From: Limnothrix sp. FACHB-406
Lineage (GTDB): Bacteria; Cyanobacteriota; Cyanobacteriia; CACIAM-69d
Assembly: GCF_014698235.1 (NCBI RefSeq)
Contig: NZ_JACJSP010000002.1
Location: forward strand, 248,001-312,000
DNA: 64,000 nt
Direction of reading: 5' to 3'
The stretch's first letter is position 1. Every line of letters starts with the position of its first letter. The position numbers were made by a program, and so were the translations under genes. Below are positions 11,377-31,762 of this stretch, piece after piece. The notes beneath the pieces are model-generated. The model was not told where the DNA came from. It was given only the letters and a program-made list of their open reading frames with translations, and ran no database searches.

Positions 11377-12432
11377 TTAACCCCACCGATCGTCGCCTTT
11401 GCCCAAGGGTTCGTCCAGGGCCATTTGTTCGATCGCGCTGGCAATTTTTAGGGCCTTCAGGGCCTGTTCGCCGCCGATCGAGGGTTGCATCTCGCCCCGC
11501 ACACAGTTCACAAAATGCTCCAATTCCGCATGGAGCGGCTCCGTGTTCCCGATCGCCACCGACTCGATCGACCCATCCAATCGATAGCAAGCCTGACTGG
11601 CGCGATCGCCTGCCGGATAGCTGGAGGTTTTGCGATGAACCAAAATTTGACGCGCCAGGAAATCCGCCTCCACCAGTGAATCCTGGCAATGGGCCGCAAT
11701 CCGGCGAATTTTGCGGTGTGTCACCTTGCTGGCCGTCAGGGTAGCCACAATCCCATTGGCAAAGCCCAGGGTTGCCGTCACATAGTCCAACTGACCGGAA
11801 GCGGCCCGGCTGCCGCTGGCCGACAAACGCACCACCGAGGAGTTGGCAATTTCCAAAATCAGATCAATGTCATGGATCATCAAGTCCAACACCACCGACA
11901 CATCATTGGCGCGATCGGCGTGGGGACTCATGCGATGGGCTTCGAGCGCTAATACCCGCTCCGTTTTCAGAACGTTGAAGCATTCTTGAAACGTGGGGTT
12001 AAATCGCTCAATATGTCCCACCAGCAAAATGCATTGACGTTCGGCCGCCGCATTCACCAGGGCCTCCGCTTCAATGATGCTGGCGGCGATCGGTTTTTCC
12101 ATGAGCACATGCACCCCAGCCCGCAGGCAATCCATGCCCACGGTGTAGTGCAGCTTGGTGGGAACCGCGATGCAAACCGCATCCACCAAGGGCAGCATGT
12201 CTTTGTAGTCTTCAAAAAACCGAACGCGGTATTTGCTGGCCAATTCCAGCCCCCGTTCCACATTCAGATCTGAAATTCCCACCAATTCGGCATCCTTAAG
12301 CAAGCTCAGGATCCGGGCGTGGTGTTGTCCCATGTTGCCGACCCCGATCGCGCCAACGCGGATGGGATGGTGGCTCGGCCGGGCAAGGGCAGGCCGAATT
12401 TGAGCATCGAGCGATTCGCTACGGGATTGCAC
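11377..12432 (-). CDS. Gfo/Idh/MocA-family oxidoreductase
   Basis: NAD(P)-dependent dehydrogenase of 351 aa. N-terminal Rossmann fold VGAIGVGNMGQHHARIL (about residues 25-41), then the family signature VLMEKPIAASIIEAE with the catalytic EKP, and the C-terminal substrate domain containing DLMIHDIDLILEI. It resembles UDP-GlcNAc 3-dehydrogenase-like members used in surface sugar synthesis, but no sugar genes lie nearby. The frame opens with GTG at 12432, and no in-frame ATG precedes the Rossmann motif. It is divergent from queC, 108 bp away. Confidence 0.88.
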   Translation of the reverse strand: MQSRSESLDAQIRPALARPSHHPIRVGAIGVGNMGQHHARILSLLKDAELVGISDLNVERGLELASKYRVRFFEDYKDMLPLVDAVCIAVPTKLHYTVGMDCLRAGVHVLMEKPIAASIIEAEALVNAAAERQCILLVGHIERFNPTFQECFNVLKTERVLALEAHRMSPHADRANDVSVVLDLMIHDIDLILEIANSSVVRLSASGSRAASGQLDYVTATLGFANGIVATLTASKVTHRKIRRIAAHCQDSLVEADFLARQILVHRKTSSYPAGDRASQACYRLDGSIESVAIGNTEPLHAELEHFVNCVRGEMQPSIGGEQALKALKIASAIEQMALDEPLGKGDDRWG

Positions 12433-20194: not shown

Positions 20195-22441
20195 CTAATG
20201 GGCGAGTTCATTCGCAGTTTCGGCTTCCCAGGCGGCGCGGACAAGGCGGATGTCGGCATAGGTGTAGCGCTGTTGCAAGAACTCGTAGATTTCCGTGAGT
20301 CGTTGGGCCCCGCAATGGTCGATCGCCCGGACAATTTCTTGCTGGATGTCGGGAGCCACAAAATCATCGATGTCGATCGCGTAGCCTTTGCGGATCAGTT
20401 CTTCGATGTGGGTGACGATCGTGGTGGTACGCAGGTTGCGGGCTTCGGCGATGTCCGCCAGGCGTTGGCCCTGTTGGTAGAGTTCCCAGGTGCTGTAGAT
20501 GGTGGTGCTGACGGCGCGGCTGGTGCGATCGCTGATCCGCTGGTCGATCGCCTTGGCCGGTGAATCCAGGTTGAATTCCTGGCAAAACGCCCCGATCGCC
20601 GCCGTGAAGGTTTGGCCGTATTGCTCCAGTTTGCGGCGACCGACTCCGGGCACATCGGCGAACTGCGCCAAATCCAGGGGCCGCAACTTGGCCATGGCCC
20701 GCAGGCTGGCATCGGTGAAAACCACGTAGGGCGGCACGTTTTGCTCGTCGGCCAGTTGTTTGCGGAGTTGCCGCAGCCGATCGAACAGGGGTTGTTCTTC
20801 GGGGGCCAGGTCTTCGGTGTTGCTGGTGGGGCGATCGCGCCGTTGGGGGGGCACGGCGACCCAAACTTCTCGCTGTTTCCGCAACACTTCCCAACTGAGG
20901 GCGTTTAACCGCAAAACCCGATAGCCATCGGTGGTTTCATCGACCAAGCCTTCGTGCCGGAGCGATCGCGCCAGCAATTGCCACTGTTCCGCCGTTCGAT
21001 CCTTGCCAATGCCGTAGGTCGAGAGTTCCTGGTGGTTATTGCGCAAAATCTTTTCGCTTTTGGAGCCGCGCAACACGTCGATGATGTATTGCGTGCCGAA
21101 CCGCTCCCGCACCCGCGCCACGCAGGAGAGGAATTTCTGAGCCGGAATCGTCCAATCTTCCAGGGGTTTGGGGTCGCGGCAGTTGTCGCAGCCGTTGCAG
21201 TTGCCGGGAAAGGCTTCGCCAAAATAGCCCAGTTGGATTGTGCGGCGGCAGACGGTGCTTTCGGCATAGTCGATCGTCTGGCGCAGTTGCTGTTGGGCGA
21301 TCCGCTGTTCGTTGGGGTCGGGCTTTTGGCCGATCAAATATTCAATGCTGCGAATGTCGCCCGTGCCGAAGTAGAGGATGCAGCGGGCGGGGTCGCCATC
21401 GCGGCCGGCGCGGCCCGACTCTTGGTAATAGCCTTCCAGGTTGCGGGGCAGGTCGTAATGCACCACCAGCCGCACATCGGGTTTGTTGATGCCCATGCCA
21501 AAGGCGATCGTCGCCACCATCACCCGCACATCGTCGCGAATAAAGCGGGTTTGGTTGTCGGCGCGGCTCTCGTTGTCCATGCCCGCGTGGTAAGCGAGCG
21601 CTTCGATGCCGTCCATTTGTAGCTTGCGAGTCAGCTCGTCCACCCGTTTGCGACTGAAGCAATAGACGATCGCGGAGCCATCGGTGGTACGCAACAGCCG
21701 CAGCAGTTCGGGATAGGTGTTGCGATCCTTGGGCCGCACTTCGTAGTAGAGGTTGGGGCGGTTGAAGCTGGCGATGTGGATCCGTGGGTCGCGTAACTGC
21801 AACTGGTGCACGATGTCTTGACGGACGCGATCGGTGGCCGTGGCGGTCAGGGCCATGAACGGTACGTTGGGATAGCGATCGCGCAGGCTCCAGAGTTGCC
21901 GATATTCCGGGCGGAAGTCGTGGCCCCACTCGGAGACGCAATGGGCCTCATCGATCGCGAATTGGGCCAAGCCGATCGTCTGGTGGATTCGATCGATCAG
22001 GGGCAAAAATCCCTCGGTCATCAACCGTTCGGGCGCAACGTAGACCAATTTATAAACATTGTTCAGCAGTTCCAATTCGCGCGATCGCAACTCGGCCACG
22101 CCCAAACTGCTGTTCAGAAAGGTGGCGGAAATCCCGTTATCGCGCAGGGCGGCCACCTGGTCTTGCATCAGGGCAATTAGCGGCGACACCACCACGGTCA
22201 GGCCGGGTTGCAACAGGGCGGGCAGTTGAAAACACAGGGATTTGCCGCCGCCCGTGGGAATCACGACCAGTTGATCGCGCCCTGCCAGTGCCGCTTCCAC
22301 AATGTCCCGCTGGCCGGGCCGAAAGCTGCGATAGCCAAAGTACTGCTTGAGGGCCTGATCAAGGTTGGGATCGGTGACCCGATCGGGCGTTGTGGTGGGT
22401 TGCCCCGCCGTTTGGTTTGTTGTCTGACCAACCCCGATCAT
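20195..22441 (-). CDS. recQ: ATP-dependent DNA helicase RecQ
   Basis: 3'-5' superfamily 2 DNA helicase for recombination and replication repair. Motif 0 [14 protein letters not shown], Walker [22 protein letters not shown] box [20 protein letters not shown], motif III MALTATA, and motif [13 protein letters not shown] are present, followed by the RQC zinc site (CRRTI...CNGCDNC) and a C-terminal HRDC domain ([24 protein letters not shown]), for about 748 aa. The ATG at 22441 follows AAGGAA; a GTG at 22456 is an alternative. The protein is longer than E. coli RecQ owing to a tail after HRDC. Confidence 0.96.
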
Positions 22442-22625
22442 GTTCCTTGCCGCCACTCGCCGTGCAATTCCTTGCTGAATTTAGCCCAAAACGGCAGTCC
22501 ATACCGATCTCGCTGGGGATGGGCGATCGATCCGGAGCTGGGGTTCAAGTGCGACCTGCCATAAGCCAGAAAATATACCCAGCCAATGTCAAAATAATCA
22601 CCGATGGGCTGATCTACATCCGGTC

Positions 22626-23387
22626 ATGAACTCTTCCTTTGTGTGGCGGTGGCTTGTGCGACGATCCTGCACATCTGGGCTGCGGCCCGTTGATGATCCG
22701 GGTTCAGGATTGGCAACTGGCTCTGTGGTTGTGGGTACTATGGGTGAAGATTCGGGTTCTGGATCGGTTGCTGGCTCCGTGACTTTGGGTGATGGGCGAT
22801 CGGGCTATCAAACCCAGAAGGCTTCTCACTCAATTTCAGGCTGTTTGATTTCAAATCGCTTGACGGCGGGTGACTCAGCGGTGGGGTTTACGCTGCTGGA
22901 ATTGCTGATTGTGGCGGCGATGGTGGGCATCCTTAGCGCGATCGCCGCGCCCGTTTGGCTATCTTTTGCGGATAATCAACGCCTCAGCCAAGCCCAGGAT
23001 GCGGCCTTTCGGACGTTGCGAATTGCCCAAGCCCGGGCCCGCCAAAATCGCCGGGTTTGGGAATTGTGTTTGCGGGACACGGGCCGATCGGTCGAGTTGG
23101 CGGTGCAGCCCGCTCGGACAGGTTTTTGTGACAATGCCCGGTGGGAACCTCTGCTGGCGGAGGCCACGGGCACGATCGGTGTGGCGATCGATGTGGATAA
23201 CAGCACCCTGCGATCGCGCAGTGGCGTTTACCGAATGCAATTCCAAGGCAGCGGCTGGGTGAATGGGCAACTGGGCCGCATCACCTTTCAACTGCGCGAT
23301 CGGGTGGATAGCCGCCGGAGTTGCGTGTTTGTGTCAACCCTCTTGGGCGCGTTGCGGGGCGATCGCGATCGGGCCTGCTTGCGCTAA
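22626..23387 (+). CDS. Type IV pilin-like / GspH-type pseudopilin
   Basis: Carries the class III (prepilin) signal AVGFTLLELLIVAAMVGILSAIAAP: cleavage would fall after Gly (codon at 22884), leaving Phe+1 and Glu+5 and a hydrophobic helix. The remaining ~165 residues fit a GspH/FimT-like minor pilin with paired cysteines. The ATG at 22626 gives an 86-residue leader, much longer than the usual 6-25; TTG codons at 22845 or 22860 would give normal leaders of about 13 or 8 residues, so the true start may be there. Function: minor pilin or competence pseudopilin in the cell envelope. Confidence 0.8.
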   Translation: MNSSFVWRWLVRRSCTSGLRPVDDPGSGLATGSVVVGTMGEDSGSGSVAGSVTLGDGRSGYQTQKASHSISGCLISNRLTAGDSAVGFTLLELLIVAAMVGILSAIAAPVWLSFADNQRLSQAQDAAFRTLRIAQARARQNRRVWELCLRDTGRSVELAVQPARTGFCDNARWEPLLAEATGTIGVAIDVDNSTLRSRSGVYRMQFQGSGWVNGQLGRITFQLRDRVDSRRSCVFVSTLLGALRGDRDRACLR

Positions 23388-23578
23388 CTCGCGGGTGGTT
23401 GGCTCGCTGGTTTGCGGGCTTCTTTCTGACCAGTACTTTGACATGGAAATAGTGAGTTGGTGAAAATCTTGCAATGCAAGCGATCATTTGTCGCAAGCCA
23501 TCATAATTACAGACATTGTTAACCTTGGCGGATAAGTGATTTTGGCACAAAAATTATCTCATAAGCACTGCCAATTTT

Positions 23579-24394
23579 CTATCTTAGTGATGGTGAACCA
23601 ATCTCTGCACTATTACTAATAGTCGGGTCTCTCATCATGATTTGAAAAAACTCAATAGCTCTTTTTTGGCTCCTGAAAGAAGCAACCTGGATAGCCTGCC
23701 GATTAACTGACTTCCTGATCTTCAAATATGCATCTCTACAGTAATTATTTTTGAGATAGCTAAGGGTATTACTATCAGTTCGATTGACAAAAACTGGATA
23801 GAAGTTCTGAAGTCCGCGAGGATTGGAATCGCCACACTCTGATTTTGGAAAACTCCAACCTGGATAGTTTTGAGCGGTATTGTTCTGAGGCTGGGTAGAT
23901 CTTTGGGGTTGGGTCGCCTCAGTTTTGGGCTGTTGATTAGACTGAGAAGCATATATACCGAAGGCGATCCCTATAAGAAGAAGAAGCAAGGCGAAACAGC
24001 CACAGCTAGACAAGGAAAAATTATCTGTAGAGGAGGAGCGTGGAGAACTGAAAGACTCTGGAGATCTAGTAGGTGGCGTGCCTCGAAAATTAGGTTCTGT
24101 AGTGCTAGGCAGTCTTGGAATATTAACATTACTAGAAGACCCTAGAGATCTAGTGGCGGAAGCACCTTGGGAAGCTGGAGATCTAGGTTGTGTGGGTCTT
24201 GGAATTTGGACTGGAGGTGATCTTCTCGCTACTGCTTCTACAAGAGAAGTGTCACCGCACCAGCATTTCCTATAATGTCGCCACGCACTAAGCGTAAGGA
24301 TTTTTCCACAGCTAGGGCATTTCATGCCATGCTCGTTGACCCTGAAGGTATGGTTAGTGTAGGGGCAACGAATACCTGGTTCAAAACTTTCCAT
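23579..24394 (-). CDS. Membrane protein with N-terminal RING-like zinc module and C-terminal SPOR-like domain (E3 candidate)
   Basis: Last gene of the ubiquitin-like island, 271 aa. Residues 10-46 hold clustered metal ligands (C10, H15/H22, C26-x2-C29, H40, C44, C46) in GMKCPSCGKI...RHYRKCWCGD, resembling prokaryotic RING-finger/treble-clef modules, though a plain zinc ribbon is possible. A Ser/Pro-rich linker leads to one membrane helix (about 131-148, FALLLLLIGIAFGIYA). The C-terminal ~90 residues (CGDSNPRG...NNYCRDAYLKIRK...IQVASFRSQKRAIEFF) resemble the SPOR-like domain at the end of many cyanobacterial envelope proteins. Probable topology: zinc module in the cytoplasm, SPOR-like part outside. 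The ATG at 24394 is preferred to a TTG at 24415. Confidence 0.65.
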   Translation of the reverse strand: MESFEPGIRCPYTNHTFRVNEHGMKCPSCGKILTLSAWRHYRKCWCGDTSLVEAVARRSPPVQIPRPTQPRSPASQGASATRSLGSSSNVNIPRLPSTTEPNFRGTPPTRSPESFSSPRSSSTDNFSLSSCGCFALLLLLIGIAFGIYASQSNQQPKTEATQPQRSTQPQNNTAQNYPGWSFPKSECGDSNPRGLQNFYPVFVNRTDSNTLSYLKNNYCRDAYLKIRKSVNRQAIQVASFRSQKRAIEFFQIMMRDPTISNSAEIGSPSLR

Positions 24395-24429
24395 TATTTC
24401 TATTTCTACTAACAAGAAATCTCACGACT

Positions 24430-25080
24430 TTACTTTCTAGTTTCCCTGCTGCCTTTACGCTTTCTTTGAGTAGAGCGTGCCTGGGTACTACCAGATGAAG
24501 TTACATTGCTGGCATCATTTCTCCAAACTAGCTGCGATCGCGACTCCGTGCTTAACTCTGAATTGTCTCTCCATACCAGATTTTGGGTTAAGGATTGTTG
24601 GTATTGATTCACTAATCGATTCATTCTTTCGTCGCCGTTGGGATCGTAGCTGGAAACTCGTATACCGTGATTGTTACCAGCGTAACCAGAGCTGCCATAT
24701 GCTTGATTCGCTCGATAGGCAGCTATGCTCTTGATTTGACTCTCTGTCAGGCAAGTATTTTCTTCATTGTTAGATATTCCTAGTGCACGACTTTCTTGAT
24801 CCGTTAATCTCAGACTTCCATTTTGGTTACGGTCTCTTAAGTCTGCTAAGAAAGCATCACGTCCAATCGTATGATCACTGCCCACTCTTCCTTGAAAGTA
24901 CCAACACCCGTCCTTTTGCCAATAGTGATCGTGGGAGATTACACTGCCTCTATCGAGGCTGTCTCTATCCCCAGAGCATAGAATTTCCCAGGCACCATCA
25001 GGCTGGCGTTTGAACTTGTACCATAGCCCCGTTGATTGATCTAGTTGAATTGCTTGTCCCCAATGACCATTATTAGACAT
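24430..25080 (-). CDS. Uncharacterised protein with EF-hand-like loop and two LxWR motifs
   Basis: 216 aa, sixth gene of the ubiquitin-like island; family not recognised. The N-terminal half is Trp/Tyr/Gly-rich and probably beta (TGLWYKFKRQPDGAWEIL, YWQKDGCWYFQGRVGSD). An EF-hand-like loop DRNQNGSLRLTDQE spans residues 83-96 (D83, N85, N87, G88, L90, D94). The disordered C-terminal part contains NLVWRD (167-172) and QLVWRN (183-188) and ends in a basic tail (RKRKGSRETRK). The ATG at 25080 follows GGGGGA and lies 22 bp after the ATPase stop. It could be a substrate or adaptor of the conjugation system. Confidence 0.6.
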   Translation of the reverse strand: MSNNGHWGQAIQLDQSTGLWYKFKRQPDGAWEILCSGDRDSLDRGSVISHDHYWQKDGCWYFQGRVGSDHTIGRDAFLADLRDRNQNGSLRLTDQESRALGISNNEENTCLTESQIKSIAAYRANQAYGSSGYAGNNHGIRVSSYDPNGDERMNRLVNQYQQSLTQNLVWRDNSELSTESRSQLVWRNDASNVTSSGSTQARSTQRKRKGSRETRK

Positions 25081-25102
25081 CGTTATTCCCCCATAAATCA
25101 AG

Positions 25103-26824
25103 TCAATCACGCCAGTTTAGTCTCGATCGAGCATCCGCTTGTTCACCTGGACTATTGGCTTGATTACCTTCTCTCCAGATCAGCCTAGAACTGGGTGTTA
25201 GACGCATTTGGTTGGAATCTCTCCAATTAAGTCTACCTCTGGATGAAGGATTCCATGTCATACTTGACCTCATGCTTGACTCTAATTGTTCTGTATAGTC
25301 AACTAAAAAGGGTTTTCGGCAAGCTGTTTTAGAGTGTACTGTGGCAACAAATGGATCACCAACAGGATACTTAATTTCACGTGCTTCTAGGATGGGGACT
25401 AATTCTCGTGAAGTCTCATACCGCTCTCTTGAAGAGCGGGTGCGGAACCAAGGAAACTCATCTTGAGGGTTTGTTTCGTGATGTCTACGTCGCCTAATAC
25501 TTCGAGGTCTATCCCCAATACGATTAACTAGCCAATTAGCAGTTCCATCGCCTACATTTCGACAAAGGATAACCGTATCAAAGTTTTCCATAACCTGATC
25601 GCGATAATCAGGATCAATAAGTTCCAAGCTCTGCGAGGCAATGATTATGCCACCTTTAGCTGAACGAGCTACACTACTAAATTCAGCTATATCAATTTGT
25701 TTTTGTATCCTTGGAAATTCATCAAGCCAAAAAGCTATACCCAATCCTCCCGCAGAGTTTGTCCATCTTTCATAGAAAATTGTCATTAAAATATCAATTA
25801 GCGCTACGGAGATTTTCTTAGAAATATCCCGTCCTGCAAGCTCAGCCCCAATTACAAACAGGGTTTGACGATTCTGAATATCGCGCAGCAAAATATCACT
25901 ATGGTTTGTAACCTGCTCAAAATTTGGCCAAGAAAAAAAACTAAGGCTGTCCTGAATAACCCAAGTGAATGCTTGATCTGCATTTTCACTATTCTCTAAA
26001 AGCCTTAGTTGAGCTTGGATGGATCGATGTAATTCAGAATCCTGGCATCTTTGCAGTAGCAGGCTTAGCTTGTTTAGGGGATCTTGAGCTATTTCATATA
26101 CATGCCTTAAAGTTGCGGAATTGCCCATTACCTGCTTAATGAGTATGATCCACTGAGCAATCCAGGTTATATCTCGCGTAGCAAACTGACGATTTTCACC
26201 TAAATCATCTGTATTGCCATAGAGAGCCTTCGCTAAAATTTGAGCATCTTGAATAGAAGAAATATTATCTAATAAGTTGATACTATGGCTACGCGAGACT
26301 TCTTGAGGAAGTGCGCTCCAGTAGATTACTTGAACACCCCTGCTTTCTGCATATCGTCCCAGCTTATCAATTAATTCTCCCCCCTTGACATCAATCACTA
26401 TGTTAGATAAGCCAGCATCAATCGCCGACTTTATCCCTGGAATAATAAAACCACCCGTCTTACCAGAGCCTGGTGGCCCAATAATTGCAAGGTTTTTATA
26501 GATACTGTTCTCCTGTAGCCAAATATTCTCACCTGAGCGAGTACGACCACGAGATATGTCTAAAAATTTGCCAACATTAAATACAGGCTGTGTTGCCAAC
26601 CTGTCATGATTCTTCAAAATTCTCGCGTTGTGGAAATTTGACCCTGGGTTTCTTAGGATATTTGTAATTTCATTGAGAGTGGCAGTTCCCGAATAATCTC
26701 TCAACTCATGAACATCTATATCCGTTGGAGGTAGAGAGTCAAGAGGCCCAATAATGGTCTCACCGCCCCCAACAAGAGAACGAAGTCCCCATCGCAAATT
26801 CTCGAGTGAGTCCTGCCATGTCAT
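25103..26824 (-). CDS. Soluble TraG/VirD4-like (HerA-FtsK superfamily) ATPase of the ubiquitin-like island
   Basis: 573 aa. Walker A IIGPPGSGKT (about 115-123), IVIDVKGGEL (142-151), Walker B IAFWLDEFPRI (363-372) and GGIIIASQSLELID (391-404) are typical of type IV secretion coupling proteins. Unlike VirD4/TraG it has no N-terminal membrane helices. The tail after residue 525 is disordered and carries three copies of a short motif: RLNWRD (531), RLIWRE (547) and, at the very end, RLNWRD (568-573). The start codon lies 3 bp after the JAMM gene stop. A pumping or unfolding role on modified proteins is conceivable; origin from a conjugative element is the alternative, but no relaxase is present. 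Confidence 0.82.
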   Translation of the reverse strand: MTWQDSLENLRWGLRSLVGGGETIIGPLDSLPPTDIDVHELRDYSGTATLNEITNILRNPGSNFHNARILKNHDRLATQPVFNVGKFLDISRGRTRSGENIWLQENSIYKNLAIIGPPGSGKTGGFIIPGIKSAIDAGLSNIVIDVKGGELIDKLGRYAESRGVQVIYWSALPQEVSRSHSINLLDNISSIQDAQILAKALYGNTDDLGENRQFATRDITWIAQWIILIKQVMGNSATLRHVYEIAQDPLNKLSLLLQRCQDSELHRSIQAQLRLLENSENADQAFTWVIQDSLSFFSWPNFEQVTNHSDILLRDIQNRQTLFVIGAELAGRDISKKISVALIDILMTIFYERWTNSAGGLGIAFWLDEFPRIQKQIDIAEFSSVARSAKGGIIIASQSLELIDPDYRDQVMENFDTVILCRNVGDGTANWLVNRIGDRPRSIRRRRHHETNPQDEFPWFRTRSSRERYETSRELVPILEAREIKYPVGDPFVATVHSKTACRKPFLVDYTEQLESSMRSSMTWNPSSRGRLNWRDSNQMRLTPSSRLIWREGNQANSPGEQADARSRLNWRD

Positions 26825-26827
26825 GAT

Positions 26828-27703
26828 CTATCTTCCACCTCCAAGAATAAAACGGGAAAGCCGTTCGAGTAAATTATTAAGAACATCGAGTATAGAAAGA
26901 ACGCTCCACCCAGAATTTTCAGGATCTTGCCTTGAATTAGTATCTTGAGTAAAGTTTGCTGTCTCTGGATTAGATGCATCCTCCTCAATATTTCTATTTA
27001 CCTCAGGTTTAGGTACAGGTAGTCGAGGCAATTCCACTCTTCTGGTTACTAATGGCTCTGAGGTCTCTTCATTGATTGGGGATGCATTGGGCGGAGATTC
27101 ATTGGGTAAAGATATTGAGCTACTGAGATAGACAGGGCTTAACCGCTTACCCTGTTCTCCATAGAAATATCCTATTTCGCGGCGAATTGGATCATATACA
27201 GCCGCAATTTGCCAAATCTTCCCAAAGGAAAGCCTCTGAGTATTTAGATCTGTTCCAGACAAAAATATTCCATGTCCTGGATGAGAATGATACCAACCAA
27301 CAATTGTTGTTTGTGGATAATGCTCTTTTTGGGTTCTGAGGATTTCCTGCCAACATTCAGGTGTAAATCTGAAGTGAACTCTATTACCTATTGTATAAGG
27401 AGCAGGAATAGAGCCTACTATCTCTGTATAGTGTTTTTGCTCGGCAGAACAGTAATAAGCATTGCCAACTAGAGCACCGCCTGTTTCATTGTTTGGATCA
27501 ACCGAAAGATGATTGATTAATTGGTTCTCTGCACTTTGATCAACGAAGATCAGCATTTCTGAGGGGTGATCTGTTTGCTGAGTCAGAGAGCTTCTTCTTT
27601 GTCGATTATCAATTAGTTGATCTCTGCTTTTTAGAAATGAACTAAGCGCATGATTACGCGGCTTATACACATCAGCATCATCTCGCCATTGCAGTTGAGA
27701 CAT
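26828..27703 (-). CDS. JAMM/JAB-domain deubiquitinase-like isopeptidase
   Basis: 291 aa, predicted to process or remove the ubiquitin-like protein. The JAMM zinc site is complete: E73 in NNETGGALVG, then H139-S-H141 in GWYHSHPGHGIFLSGTD with S149 and D152 (spacing HxH-x7-S-x2-D). A Pro/Glu-rich linker separates this from a C-terminal amphipathic helix (SILDVLNNLLERLSRFILGGGR). The protein begins MSQLQWRDD, so it bears the island's LxWRD motif at its N-terminus. I chose the ATG at 27703, 5 bp after the E2 stop; the longer frame would overlap the E2 gene by 85 bp. Confidence 0.9.
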   Translation of the reverse strand: MSQLQWRDDADVYKPRNHALSSFLKSRDQLIDNRQRRSSLTQQTDHPSEMLIFVDQSAENQLINHLSVDPNNETGGALVGNAYYCSAEQKHYTEIVGSIPAPYTIGNRVHFRFTPECWQEILRTQKEHYPQTTIVGWYHSHPGHGIFLSGTDLNTQRLSFGKIWQIAAVYDPIRREIGYFYGEQGKRLSPVYLSSSISLPNESPPNASPINEETSEPLVTRRVELPRLPVPKPEVNRNIEEDASNPETANFTQDTNSRQDPENSGWSVLSILDVLNNLLERLSRFILGGGR

Positions 27704-27708
27704 GAGGA

Positions 27709-28221
27709 TTACCTCCAATTTAACTGACGAGATGACTGGCTCGTGGAAGAGTTGGAACTGAAGGGGAAAAGATGGCGATTCAAATTCGCCCATTTCGCTG
27801 CTTCTCCATTAGCTGGAGTGCCAAATCGGAGATTTTCATACTGGAGCATCCCAATCACTCTTTTCACTAAAGCGTCTAGTGGATGACTCATGATCATCAA
27901 CTCACTACCTTGGAAACAGAAGCGTCCACTAGAAAAAACATTGGGATGAAATATCGGTGTTGTGAGCTTTACGGTTGGAAGCTCTCCAGGATCTGGGTAA
28001 GCTGCAGGAAACGAGCTAATCTCCAGAATATGATTGGTTCGATACTTTGGCGCTCCGCTGCTTACGGATTCAACGCTCTTGCAGTTAGAAATCTGGAGTC
28101 GGTAATACTCTAGGGGGCAACTACCTTCAATCATTTGGATCTTGACCGGCTCACTGAATGCACAGAGAATTTGCAGGGCGCGATAATCATTTGATAAGCG
28201 CTCATTACGAATCGATGACAT
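27709..28221 (-). CDS. E2-like ubiquitin-conjugating enzyme
   Basis: 170 aa. The UBC-fold core is clear: ILEISSFPAAYPDPGELPTV corresponds to the FP-x-x-YP strand region, then TTPIFHPNVFSSGRFCF gives the HPN motif (92-94) and the active-site Cys (C102) at the spacing of eukaryotic E2s. It should accept the activated ubiquitin-like protein from the E1 as a thioester. After residue 152 the protein is Ser-rich and disordered and ends exactly in RQLNWR, one copy of the recurrent motif. The start lies 6 bp after the ubiquitin-like gene stop, in a tight operon. Confidence 0.88.
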   Translation of the reverse strand: MSSIRNERLSNDYRALQILCAFSEPVKIQMIEGSCPLEYYRLQISNCKSVESVSSGAPKYRTNHILEISSFPAAYPDPGELPTVKLTTPIFHPNVFSSGRFCFQGSELMIMSHPLDALVKRVIGMLQYENLRFGTPANGEAAKWANLNRHLFPFSSNSSTSQSSRQLNWR

Positions 28222-28227
28222 TTCTTC

Positions 28228-28476
28228 TCAGCCTCCTTCAGCTTCAGGTGTAAGAATGAAAACAGAGCCTGACTCGATGCCTGCACCTTGAAACGTATCA
28301 GAGTCTCTCATTACCTTGTTCGTCTTTTCAAGAACAAGAGAACAAGGAACAGTTGACAGCCCAGCTAATTCTTGAGCAGCTTGCCTAAAGTCTCCTAAAA
28401 GCATATCGGCTGGAACATCAGTTGTTTTACGGAAATCACCACTGAGGTTTCTCACGGTTACGGTAACTTGGTTCAT
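28228..28476 (-). CDS. Ubiquitin-like protein with C-terminal Gly-Gly
   Basis: 82 aa, the predicted modifier of the system. The beta-grasp pattern is visible: MNQVTVTVRNLSGDFRKTTD (strands 1-2), LLGDFRQAAQELAGL (helix), SLVLEKTNKVMRDSDTFQGAGI and SGSVFILTP (last strands). The frame stops directly after PEAEGG, so the diglycine is exposed without processing. I chose the ATG at 28476, which sits 7 nt after GAGGAG; the ATG at 28482 is too close to that site. The size and YukD/ubiquitin-like layout fit bacterial Ubl families. No LxWR motif. Confidence 0.85.
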   Translation of the reverse strand: MNQVTVTVRNLSGDFRKTTDVPADMLLGDFRQAAQELAGLSTVPCSLVLEKTNKVMRDSDTFQGAGIESGSVFILTPEAEGG

Positions 28477-28769
28477 TTTCATACTCCTCAAGTAGAGTTT
28501 AGTTCGTGCAAGGCTGACAGCCTACTAGAATAGCAACAACCCATTGATTGTACATAGGTTAAGTCACAAAGAGTAGTGTCTTCAGATTCAACAATTTTAA
28601 GCCTTTCTGTCTGATTTTCTAAAATAAAAATACGATCAGATAAAATGCCATTGTTTGAGCTGGAAATAGTACTTAAATCGAGAAGACTTTTTTGACTTCT
28701 CTTCAGATCATACCACTTGGAACACCAGTAATTCTAGTCCAATCTGAACGTGAAATCTTGATCTCAACG
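28477..28769 (-). other. 293-bp gap between E1-like and ubiquitin-like genes
   Basis: Unlike the other junctions of the island (3-35 bp), this one is wide and AT-rich. It holds an imperfect hairpin (GAGAAG / CTTCTC, 28680-28701) shortly after the E1 stop, which could end or attenuate transcription. It ends in a clear GAGGAG site for the ubiquitin-like gene. A separate promoter for the downstream genes is likely, but I cannot name one with confidence. Confidence 0.45.
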
Positions 28770-29942
28770 TCAAGCCAGTTCATGGATTGTCTCATTTTCA
28801 AGGTTTGTCAAGTAAATTTGATAAATCTCCTCATCATCATGAATGTTTTTATGAATAAATCGGACAATTTCATGAGCGCAAAGTTTAAAGAAAGAAAATG
28901 GCTTTTGAGCATCTTTATGATTGGATTCAACATAGCAATAATGATGCATCTCTCTACGATTGCCACATTTAATGCAAAAGCTTTTACTCTGTGTAACTTG
29001 GTCTCTAAGGTTGACTATTAGCTCAGTGCTACCACACTTTTCACAAGTAACGCTGGATATAAAATCAAACGGAAGTTCTAGTCTCCATCCGTCGCGCAAA
29101 CTCAGCTTTTCGGCAACATAACCTGGACTATGAGATAGACTGAATTGACAAAGATTTTCATCTTTGTTCTTGGGAATTGAATAATGGTCAGGGCATTCCT
29201 TGTCTACAAAAAACTCAACAGTTCGGAATCCAAGTGGTTGACTCACTGGCAGAATCAATTGCGTTCCTGGCTGTAAGTTGCTGCTTCCTAATAGAAGCTG
29301 AATTACTACTTCAGCTTGGTAAGCAGCTACAACAGAAGCAGTCATAATCGTTGTTGCCAGCTTTGGTTCCCGATAATCATCTCTTAAAAGACCACATGAG
29401 TAGCTCTCGTTAAGGCGCTCCCATGCTGATGTGTCCATCTTGCAACGATAGCAAGCAGTCTCAGGTTCTCTAGGATCAAAAAGAGCCACATTTCCTGAGT
29501 AATGGTTGATTCCACCATCAACCCATGGAACTCCAACGGAGTAGCATCTTTTATTAAGTAATCGCCGTGCTCTTACACTGTCTAGGCAGCCTACTACTAC
29601 ATCCATTTCACGGAGTAAACCACGACCAAAATCTGTTTCTAATTTTCCGACTACAGGGTGAATGTGAATATCTGAATTCAGGTCTTTGAGTCGTTGAGTA
29701 ACAACTTCAGCTTTATATTTACCAATGTCAGATTCTCTGAATAGTACAGATCGCGTCAGGTTATGAATTTCAATAGTGTCATAATCAATAACCCAAATAT
29801 GCCCCACTCCAAGCAGGGCAAGGTTTTTAAGCACCTCGTTTCCAAGTGCTCCGCATCCCACGACAGCAACTCTTGCCGCTGCTAACCGTTCTTGCTTCCA
29901 GTTTGGGATGAGGCTATGTCGAGCATAGCGTTCTTCAGACAT
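28770..29942 (-). CDS. E1-like ThiF-family adenylating enzyme
   Basis: 390 aa, first gene of the island; predicted to adenylate the Gly-Gly end of the ubiquitin-like protein. ATP-binding Rossmann motif VAVVGCGALGNEVLKNLAL (25-43), acidic VIDYDTIE (51-58), NLTRSVLF with the Arg finger, and CLDSVRARRLLN (D121). A zinc site is likely from C164-x2-C167 and C250-x2-H253. C183 in YSCGLLRDD is a candidate thioester Cys. After about residue 290 an extra C-terminal zinc ribbon (C300/C303, C323/C326) and helices follow; these are unusual for a MoeB/ThiF protein and may recruit the E2 or a target. The ATG at 29942 gives MSEERYARHSLIPNW, typical of the family. Confidence 0.9.
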   Translation of the reverse strand: MSEERYARHSLIPNWKQERLAAARVAVVGCGALGNEVLKNLALLGVGHIWVIDYDTIEIHNLTRSVLFRESDIGKYKAEVVTQRLKDLNSDIHIHPVVGKLETDFGRGLLREMDVVVGCLDSVRARRLLNKRCYSVGVPWVDGGINHYSGNVALFDPREPETACYRCKMDTSAWERLNESYSCGLLRDDYREPKLATTIMTASVVAAYQAEVVIQLLLGSSNLQPGTQLILPVSQPLGFRTVEFFVDKECPDHYSIPKNKDENLCQFSLSHSPGYVAEKLSLRDGWRLELPFDFISSVTCEKCGSTELIVNLRDQVTQSKSFCIKCGNRREMHHYCYVESNHKDAQKPFSFFKLCAHEIVRFIHKNIHDDEEIYQIYLTNLENETIHELA

Positions 29943-29960
29943 AGTGTGATCTTGTATTCG

Positions 29961-30001
29961 CCAGTATGTATATACTGGCTTTCCTTTACAAGTGTTGTCA
30001 A
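29961..30001 (-). promoter_or_regulatory. Candidate promoter/operator of the ubiquitin-like island
   Basis: On the minus strand a perfect TTGACA (29996-30001) lies upstream of the hairpin-forming repeat CCAGTAT/ATACTGG (29961-29978), which would overlap the -10 region. The E1 start codon is 19 bp further on. An 11-bp direct repeat (AGTAACTGTGA) is next to the -35 at 30001-30022. The palindrome could bind a repressor; no regulator gene is seen in the island. Confidence 0.4.
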
Positions 30002-30073
30002 GTAACTGTGAAGTAACTGTGATTTGTACTCAACACATCACGGGGCTACCCTCGCTTTTTAATCCCAGCCTGT

Positions 30074-30562
30074 TTAATTCGTCGCTTTTTCGCTCACGCC
30101 CTGGCCCAGCTCAGGAGCCACGGGATACCAACGCCAACGCTGAAGCCGAAACCGCACTGTGGTGAACCGGGCCCGTTCCGCCACCGGGCGATCGAGCAAT
30201 TGCTCCACGGGCAATACTGTGCCATCGGTCTGCACAGCCAAATTGTCCGCCTCTAACTCCAGCATCCAATTGCCGAACCGACAGGTGACCGGTGTGATCC
30301 GAAAGCCACTCAAGGACTCGATCGGGTGGCCAATGCGCGCCCCCACACAAAACACCTCCTCCGGGGCCCGGCTCACGACCCGCAGCGCGATCGCCACTTC
30401 CTCGCGTAATTTCTCAGACTGCTCAATTAACGATTGCCACTCAGCCAGGCTGGAGGAGCCACCCGCCAAAGCAGGCTGGACTTCCCAGCCAACGGTGGCC
30501 ACTCGCACAACTCCCACCAGAATGGTGATCAGCCCCAAAGTCCAATGTATGTATTTACCCAT
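30074..30562 (-). CDS. Hypothetical envelope protein
   Basis: 162 aa. A hydrophobic N-terminal segment (WTLGLITILVGVVRVATVG) followed by QPALAGGSSS suggests a signal peptide or anchor. The rest is a small domain with two cysteines (EEVFCVGARIGH, TPVTCRFGNW) and FRLQRWRWYPV. Family not recognised. GC content and CGATCG sites match the host genome, so it marks the right border of the AT-rich island. Confidence 0.55.
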   Translation of the reverse strand: MGKYIHWTLGLITILVGVVRVATVGWEVQPALAGGSSSLAEWQSLIEQSEKLREEVAIALRVVSRAPEEVFCVGARIGHPIESLSGFRITPVTCRFGNWMLELEADNLAVQTDGTVLPVEQLLDRPVAERARFTTVRFRLQRWRWYPVAPELGQGVSEKATN

Positions 30563-30862
30563 TGATCGGGAAGCAACCGCCGAGCGCCCAGACGATTACG
30601 TAGCCTCTGTTACGGTTTTAGCCCGATCGATTCAATCTCAGCCCAGTTCTCAAGAAAACCACACAGCAATTTCAGTGCGTCTGGTCACCACGATCCGATC
30701 GCCTGCCTCGTATCATGCAACCGAAGCGGGCCCCTCATCGGATTGACCCACGGGCAGCGGCCAAAGGGTGAATGAAAAACAACATGGGCAACCCTCGCCC
30801 GGCCGCCACCAACCGGTCACTCCTAACCTCCCCCAACAAACCCTCAGAGCCACTGACTGACC
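30563..30862. other. Intergenic region before argB
   Basis: 300 bp between divergent genes. It should contain the argB promoter. An antisense-type open frame passes through but has no support as a gene. Confidence 0.45.
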
Positions 30863-31762
30863 ATGGATCACGAAAGCGAATACATCAGTAAAGCCGAAGC
30901 CACCCGGGTGCGCGTTCTCAGCGAAGCCCTGCCCTACATTCAGCAGTTTGCCGGGCGCACGGTGGTGGTGAAATATGGCGGCGCAGCCATGAAAGACGAT
31001 CGCCTCAAGGACAAGGTGATTCGTGATGTTGTGTTCATGTCCTGTGTGGGATTACGTCCAGTGGTGGTGCATGGGGGCGGGCCCGAAATTAACAATTGGC
31101 TGGGCAAACTCAACATCGAGCCACAATTCCGCGACGGGCTGCGGGTGACCGACTCCGACACCATGGATGTGGTGGAAATGGTGTTGGTGGGCCGTGTGAA
31201 TAAGGAACTGGTCTCGCTGATTAACCAGGCCGGTGGCATGGCGATCGGGCTTTGTGGCAAAGACGGCAACTTGGTCACCGCTCGCCAAAAGGGCAACCGC
31301 CAGGAAATTGGCTTTGTGGGCGAAGTCAACAGCATCAACATCGATGTGTTGGAACCGATGTTGAACAATGGCTATATTCCCGTGATTTCCAGCGTGGCGG
31401 CCGATGCGGACGGCCAAGCCTACAACATCAATGCGGACACGGTGGCCGGGGAGTTGGCGGCAGCCCTGGGAGCCGAGAAGATGATTCTGCTGACGGATAC
31501 GGCCGGGGTGCTGCGGGACTATAAAGATCCTTCGACCCTGATCCCCAAGGTGGATATTCAAGGGGCCCGGGAGCTAATTTCCCAAGGCATCGTCGGCGGC
31601 GGCATGATTCCCAAGGTGAACTGTTGTGTCCGATCGCTGGCTCAGGGGGTGCGGGCGGCTCACATTATTGATGGCCGCATTCCCCACGCCCTTTTGCTGG
31701 AAATTTTTACGGACGCGGGGATCGGAACCATGATTGTGGCCTCCGATCTGATGAAGTCTTGA
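30863..31762 (+). CDS. argB: Acetylglutamate kinase
   Basis: Phosphorylates N-acetylglutamate, the controlling step of arginine synthesis, and in cyanobacteria the target of PII. 299 aa, full length. Visible are [12 protein letters not shown] (first Gly-rich loop), [55 protein letters not shown] and GGMIPKV. The family-specific residues for the arginine-inhibited, PII-binding type (extended N-terminal helix before TVVVKYGG) are in place. No other arg genes are next to it. Confidence 0.97.

Follow-up and report, generated by a model that had tools for sequence, protein, structure and literature searches.

A candidate membrane-tethered E3 with a RING-like zinc domain and a SPOR-like domain, encoded in a cyanobacterial island for ubiquitin-like conjugation

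Among the components of bacterial ubiquitin-like pathways, E3s are the least understood. Tri-ligase operons, which comprise genes for E1, E2, Ubl, JAB and RING proteins and in which the Ubl is YukD-like, were reportedly predicted in bacteria by Burroughs et al. in 2011. In E3s of the SP-RING and U-box kinds one zinc site or both have been lost, and the start is of the [CD]P-x-[ST] type. Operons of E1, E2 and JAB, as well as YukD, are covered by a 2006 survey (PMC1779556), and one type of bacterial Ubl/RING operon is described in PMC7159879, which cites the 2011 study. BilABCD systems contain E1, E2, Ubl and JAB in one operon, their Ubl (BilA) having two domains (PMC11354881). Section 3.8 of the same review, following Pisano et al., deals with RINGs of bacteria in which two pairs of ligands are missing, while the pairs in the central hairpin and the C-terminal extension are kept.

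The locus analysed here lies in a stretch of 64,000 nucleotides from Limnothrix sp. FACHB-406 (the window), in an island which, like the tri-ligase operons, holds genes for E1, E2, Ubl, JAB and a RING-type protein together, the latter being RING-type in the half-zinc sense only. E1, E2, Ubl and JAB form one operon, as in BilABCD, but the window Ubl consists of only one domain, 84 aa long, which sets the island apart from these systems, and a RING-like and an ATPase gene are added. In comparison with the type described in PMC7159879, Ubl and E2 are encoded by separate genes, the RING-like protein is membrane-anchored and, in one clade, a VirD4-like ATPase is added. The RING-like domain exhibits the same pattern of ligand loss as the half-zinc RINGs of PMC11354881, for which that section gives no membrane context, whereas the window protein is anchored. 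A literature search, the scope of which took in neither preprints nor the 2011 study of Burroughs et al., returned no earlier report of this operon with a membrane-anchored RING. The present analysis adds the rule of membrane anchoring, a SPOR-like ectodomain, a shared motif and, across 45 domains, the half-zinc pattern, to a kind of operon that had already been predicted.

The island and its relatives

The island is a clean horizontal insertion of seven genes and 6,649 bp (23421..30069), absent from the sister species G001. Matches to G001 cover window positions 22001-23420 (90%) and 30070-31500 (94%) and are separated in that genome by a single base, and as the flanking genes are adjacent in the sister species, 23421-30069 is extra in the window. 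The GC content of the island is near 41-43%, compared to about 58% in either flank. All its genes lie on one strand, in the order (from upstream) E1, Ubl, E2, JAB, ATPase, an uncharacterised protein and the RING-like gene.

The E1 (28770..29942, minus strand, as are all genes below) exhibits the ThiF fold (ThiF, 1.1e-55), and a PADLOC match to BilD is confined to its residues 21-136. It is followed by the YukD-like Ubl, which ends in GG (28228..28482; YukD, 0.0059, below cut-off), and by the E2 (27709..28221), with an HPN motif, the active Cys (Cys102) and a C-terminal LNWR motif; its UQ_con match (7e-6) falls just under the cut-off, and eukaryotic E2s are retrieved from the PDB (best 1.8e-11) by a profile built on E2s from four islands. 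The JAB/MPN peptidase (26828..27703; Prok-JAB, 1.1e-9) carries an N-terminal LQWRD motif, and the VirD4/TraG-like ATPase of 573 aa (25103..26824; Pfam T4SS-DNA_transf, 1.4e-19) has three LxWR motifs in its C-terminal tail and no segment with a hydropathy of 1.6 or more. The ATPase is linked to the Ubl operon in the clade of the window (the window and L035-L039) and was not detected in the other loci. The uncharacterised protein (24430..25080), with two LxWR motifs, has no match in Pfam, PADLOC or NCBIfam; homologues are found at the equivalent position in Crinalium, Dulcicalothrix, Coleofasciculus and Geitlerinema.

Homologues of the E2 are rare, being present in 3/145 relatives and 3/388 genomes of the class (the window's own genome counted), and the closest annotated copy is found on a Crinalium plasmid. 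An E2 profile, which is blind to the RING-like gene, identified 37 loci in a genome-contig collection. The RING-like gene was found beside E1/E2/JAB in 23 of them with an HMM of five sequences (A4), and an HMM of 38 sequences (A5) added seven more, from Vibrio (two), Sphingobium, Desulfobacterales, Cupriavidus, Chloroflexota and Photobacterium. Linkage to E1-Ubl-E2-JAB thus amounts to 30/37 loci in cyanobacteria, proteobacteria and Chloroflexota, in agreement with the initial annotation, which had placed the gene in a Ubl-conjugation island. It was not detected in the remaining seven (L052, which is broken, L062, L066, L067, L069, L070 and L072); in L062, L069 and L070, the approximately 1.8 kb upstream of E1 contain no same-strand ORF of at least 110 aa bearing the pattern. 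The RING-like gene follows JAB (or the ATPase and the uncharacterised protein) in most cyanobacteria and precedes E1 in the proteobacterial and Chloroflexota type. An E1-Ubl-E2-JAB operon of the Vibrio type, which includes the RING-like gene, is also present on a viral contig of 41.5 kb from IMG/VR (L077), and a search of a phage collection with the Crinalium E2 as a query returned no match.

The N-terminal zinc domain

The RING-like gene (23579..24394, minus strand) encodes a protein of 271 aa, with an ATG at 24394 and a stop at 23579, comprising a RING-like domain, a transmembrane (TM) helix and a SPOR-like domain. Starting from a TTG at 24415 would lengthen the protein by 7 aa; translation more likely begins at the ATG, since the M-E-[ST]-F-E that follows from it is shared with relatives. 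Cysteines are found at positions 10, 26, 29, 44, 46, 131, 133, 187 and 219, and histidines at 15, 22 and 40. As a single query, the protein has no real match in Pfam, PADLOC or NCBIfam, and at full length it found zero relatives in the genome-contig collection. The N-terminal domain (modelled as residues 1-65, 24200..24394, minus strand) is not a chance similarity, because it recurs, at up to 58% identity to the window, in homologues from other genera that occupy operon positions next to these genes.

Its conservation was assessed over 45 distinct domains out of 46, leaving out L047 and L061, which come from the same genomes as L030 and L031. C26 is present in 44/45 (the exception being one truncated row), a Cys or His at 29 and at 44 in 45/45, and C46 in 44/45. 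From the ligands listed in the initial annotation, C26-x2-C29 and C44-x-C46 are therefore kept, whereas 30 of the domains have D at position 10 and only 11 have C, and H40 is private to the window protein, so that neither C10 nor H40 is a conserved ligand. Positions 13 (T/S/N/I) and 37 (S/A/E/N), which from the spacing of RINGs we take to be their C2 and C6 positions, are Cys in 0/45 rows. Position 12, which falls between the places where C1 and C2 have been lost, is occupied by V, F, Y, W, L or I in 43/45 rows; RINGs contact E2 at the corresponding place. As far as can be predicted from sequence, the window domain has one four-ligand site and not the full two-zinc set, and thus differs from a canonical RING with two zinc sites and eight Cys/His ligands in a cross-brace.

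Prok-RING_1 (PF14446) is the commonest Pfam family among the domain members (16/38, best 1.5e-4; the next family, 5/38), but its cut-off of 29.1 bits is reached neither by them nor by the window row. In the window's own domain it was not matched at E up to 1, the best Pfam matches being Cys_rich_CWC (0.015) and families of zinc-ribbon type; it was also not matched in the window's genome, and among 96 genomes of the class it yielded one weak match and 0 above the cut-off. No sequence match to SP-RING or U-box proteins was obtained. A profile of the domain run against PDB sequences first retrieved C2H2 finger arrays (best 4.6e-10, positions 16-42 of 70). We regard this as a likeness confined to the linker of C2H2 fingers and not as C2H2 identity, because the structural neighbours of the model belong to the treble clefs and its second pair of ligands has the form C-x(1-2)-C. 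The entry for EL5, a RING protein, was matched over 9-55, at an E-value of 0.75 only.

The AF2 model of the domain (alignment A6 of 35 rows, without both L035 rows and L045) has a pLDDT of 92.0 and a pTM of 0.73. A Foldseek search with it gave nothing at E 0.001 or better (best E 0.45), the best 50 matches including ZZ domains, the RINGs of TRAF3 and Rad18, and the U-box of Prp19. In VIA-align, with Z up to 5.5, ZZ-type and LIM chains are among the first matches, the RINGs of RNF125 and Ring1b score 4.0 and a match labelled U-box 3.9; ZZ domains outrank RINGs, yet matches at Z 4-5.5 are nearly tied. According to the model, the domain is a treble clef of the RING/ZZ/LIM kind and not a zinc ribbon. 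The zinc module proposed in the initial annotation, which had suggested comparing residues 1-55 with Prok-RING and zinc-ribbon profiles, thus retains its RING-like character as regards its treble-clef neighbours (the comparison was run on residues 1-65), while it has one zinc site and the window row lacks a Prok-RING_1 match. As structure does not separate RING from ZZ or LIM and only one zinc site is present, the E3 function is something that we infer.

The membrane helix and the attached domains

A Ser/Thr/Pro-rich linker connects the RING-like domain to the TM helix at residues 131-149 (23948..24004, minus strand; Kyte-Doolittle hydropathy 2.42). As this is the one hydrophobic segment of the protein, the single helix (131-148) and the membrane tether that had been proposed both stand. 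A TM segment with hydropathy of at least 1.6 is present in 39/43 RING-like proteins (L047 and L061 again left out). The four without a call are L056, which is borderline (1.54), L057, cut by the end of its contig, and L043 and L045, whose N-terminal parts are shorter than in their TM-containing homologue L046.

The attached domains vary among relatives. A SPOR-like domain is attached in L037 as in the window protein, Big_2 in L030, TPR in L046, and PPC and SH3_3, both below cut-off, in L031 and L065, respectively; the proteobacterial type has an OB-like C-terminus (a weak match) and Crinalium an NTF2-like ectodomain (very weak, E 0.79). In Planktothrix L046 the RING-like domain is on the same side of the helix as the TPR repeats. 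Several loci hold two RING-like membrane proteins, some copies (L036, L037) contain two RING-like domains in tandem, and one Crinalium copy is tail-anchored. In L030 (13099-15408) two TM segments flank the RING-like domain, which has Big-type repeats on its N-side, an arrangement that misfits a simple in/out scheme.

The C-terminal domain (modelled as residues 167-271, 23582..23896, minus strand) resembles SPOR domains and, judging by the contexts in which relatives carry it, lies outside the cytoplasm, as had been suggested from the tail with IQVASF, which sits at residue 235. C187 and C219 are invariant across 26 rows, and the AF2 model from these rows (pLDDT 87.8) exhibits the beta-alpha-beta-beta-alpha-beta order of SPOR domains. 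Among tied structural matches (best Z 5.3), which also comprise other ferredoxin-like folds, are the SPOR domains of 1x60 (Z 5.0 with 72 aligned at an rmsd of 3.4) and 6i09 (Z 4.7 with 70 aligned at an rmsd of 3.5). SPOR (PF05036) is the commonest Pfam match of the members (14/26, best 0.0024), and one relative, L004, reaches the cut-off of 21 bits with 21.0 bits, while the window copy shares the strand and helix order but has no SPOR sequence match. This resemblance alone does not show peptidoglycan binding, and the role in envelope stress or phage entry suggested in the initial annotation gains no support from the present results.

The protein is matched in 22/145 genomes of relatives, nearly all through the C-domain. 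By inspection, the intact copies of this domain are preceded by a hydrophobic segment or by a start resembling a lipobox, and L024 is a truncated version of one such protein. Two members of the window's family carry the C-domain behind a protein kinase plus a TM segment (Pkinase 7.4e-36 and 1.8e-38), the kinase standing where the window protein has its RING-like domain. These fusions, L002 and L003, come from the window's family and genus. The domain may therefore be a sensor module swapped between kinase and RING-like domain. As the C-domain follows lipobox-like starts and kinase-TM segments in relatives, the C-terminus would be outside and the zinc domain inside. Positive-inside counts in the 39 proteins with TM agree with the N-in topology in 26, tie in 10 and disagree in 3, among them the window protein, with Lys/Arg 1 vs 2, against the expected side.

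The shared motif and the proposed role

In the 2,045 aa of the seven proteins encoded by the island, LxWR is found 7 times, compared to a mean of 0.27 and a maximum of 3 in 1000 shuffles, and it is found 0 times in the 16,745 aa of 43 further long ORFs elsewhere in the window. Four related islands have 9, 7, 8 and 4. The sites lie at the C-terminus of E2, the N-terminus of JAB, in the ATPase tail and in the uncharacterised protein, as well as in some RING-like proteins, but not the window's. A looser form occurs in 21 of the 28 E2 tails that were parsed (mean in shuffles, 6.3) and in 32/36 JAB N-termini (12.8), L045, L047, L055, L061, L072 and nine unparsed E2s being left out; its regular expression was composed after viewing the tails and the counts are descriptive. 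E2 and JAB retain the W/F form in distant phyla, and in Microseira L039 F replaces W in the E2 (LIFR) and at the JAB start (LEFRD), while JAB keeps an internal LQWRD. Because the motif recurs in E2, JAB, the ATPase and the uncharacterised protein, it may serve a common docking pocket.

We consider it somewhat probable that the RING-like protein is a membrane-tethered E3 or ligase adaptor of the mobile E1-Ubl-E2-JAB operon. This is supported by its gene in 30/37 loci found with an E2 query blind to it, the treble-clef model with ZZ, LIM, RING and U-box neighbours, Prok-RING_1 in 16/38 members, the hydrophobic position 12 in 43/45 domains and the TM segment in 39/43 proteins; the layout is supported by the C-domain behind lipobox-like starts and kinase-TM segments and by the RING-like domain and TPR of L046 on one side. 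Against it count the window row with Cys_rich_CWC and zinc-ribbon-type families instead of Prok-RING_1, the C2H2 arrays over part of the domain in the PDB profile search, the lack of a strong structural match (E 0.45, Z 5.5) with ZZ above RINGs, the positive-inside count of 1 vs 2 in the window and the 7/37 loci without a detectable RING-like gene. The cytoplasmic single-zinc domain would bind E2~Ubl and promote transfer, LxWRD-type motifs would dock E2, JAB, the ATPase and the uncharacterised protein onto a partner common to all of them, allowing the pathway to assemble at the membrane, and the outer SPOR-like domain would bind an envelope ligand, possibly a glycan, and set where or when conjugation occurs. 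A broader proposal, which we put forward as tentative, is that such islands encode a class of one-pass receptor-like E3s with a cytoplasmic half-RING and changeable domains, some of them outside (SPOR-like, NTF2-like, PPC-like), which gather E2, JAB, the VirD4-like motor and the uncharacterised protein via [hydrophobic]-x-[W/F]-[R/N]-[D/N] into a membrane complex modifying proteins upon an envelope event.

Several of these observations can be read differently. The absence of half of the RING ligands, the rank of ZZ and LIM above RINGs in structural comparison, and a motif common to E2, JAB and ATPase that suggests some docking receptor would also fit a ZZ/LIM-like adaptor, which would bind a substrate, a short motif or the Ubl and do no more than recruit the pathway to the membrane, the E2 acting without an E3; as Prok-RING_1 tops the family scan (16/38) and the near-tie at Z 4-5.5 does not settle ZZ over RING, we regard this as rather unlikely. 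It is improbable that the membrane protein is the main Ubl substrate or anchor, a receptor itself modified to signal an outside event: the receptor-like layout with differing extra domains and the two such proteins in several loci agree with it, but it leaves unexplained why the zinc domain is conserved and the other domains vary. Still less credible is an ordinary envelope zinc-ribbon protein adjoining the operon by chance, which the weak zinc-ribbon-type matches of the window copy might suggest, as this is largely refuted by the operon linkage in 30/37 loci over several phyla and is also at odds with the treble-clef model.

A mobile compact operon with an anchored half-RING and a common docking motif represents a small reconstitutable system, which allows one to ask directly if a bacterial RING acts as an E3, and at the membrane. 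If the E3 reading is true, the layout resembles that of eukaryotic transmembrane RING ligases, in which a cytoplasmic ligase is controlled by an outside domain.

Variation has been also observed in other components of these operons. Crinalium L035 has two tandem Ubl genes (11418-11995), one of which ends in GGY and may need trimming, while the other, without GG, may be a decayed copy. In L031 (3011-4312) and its relatives L058, L060, L065 and L068, the JAB carries a long N-terminal extension that appears E2-like by eye.
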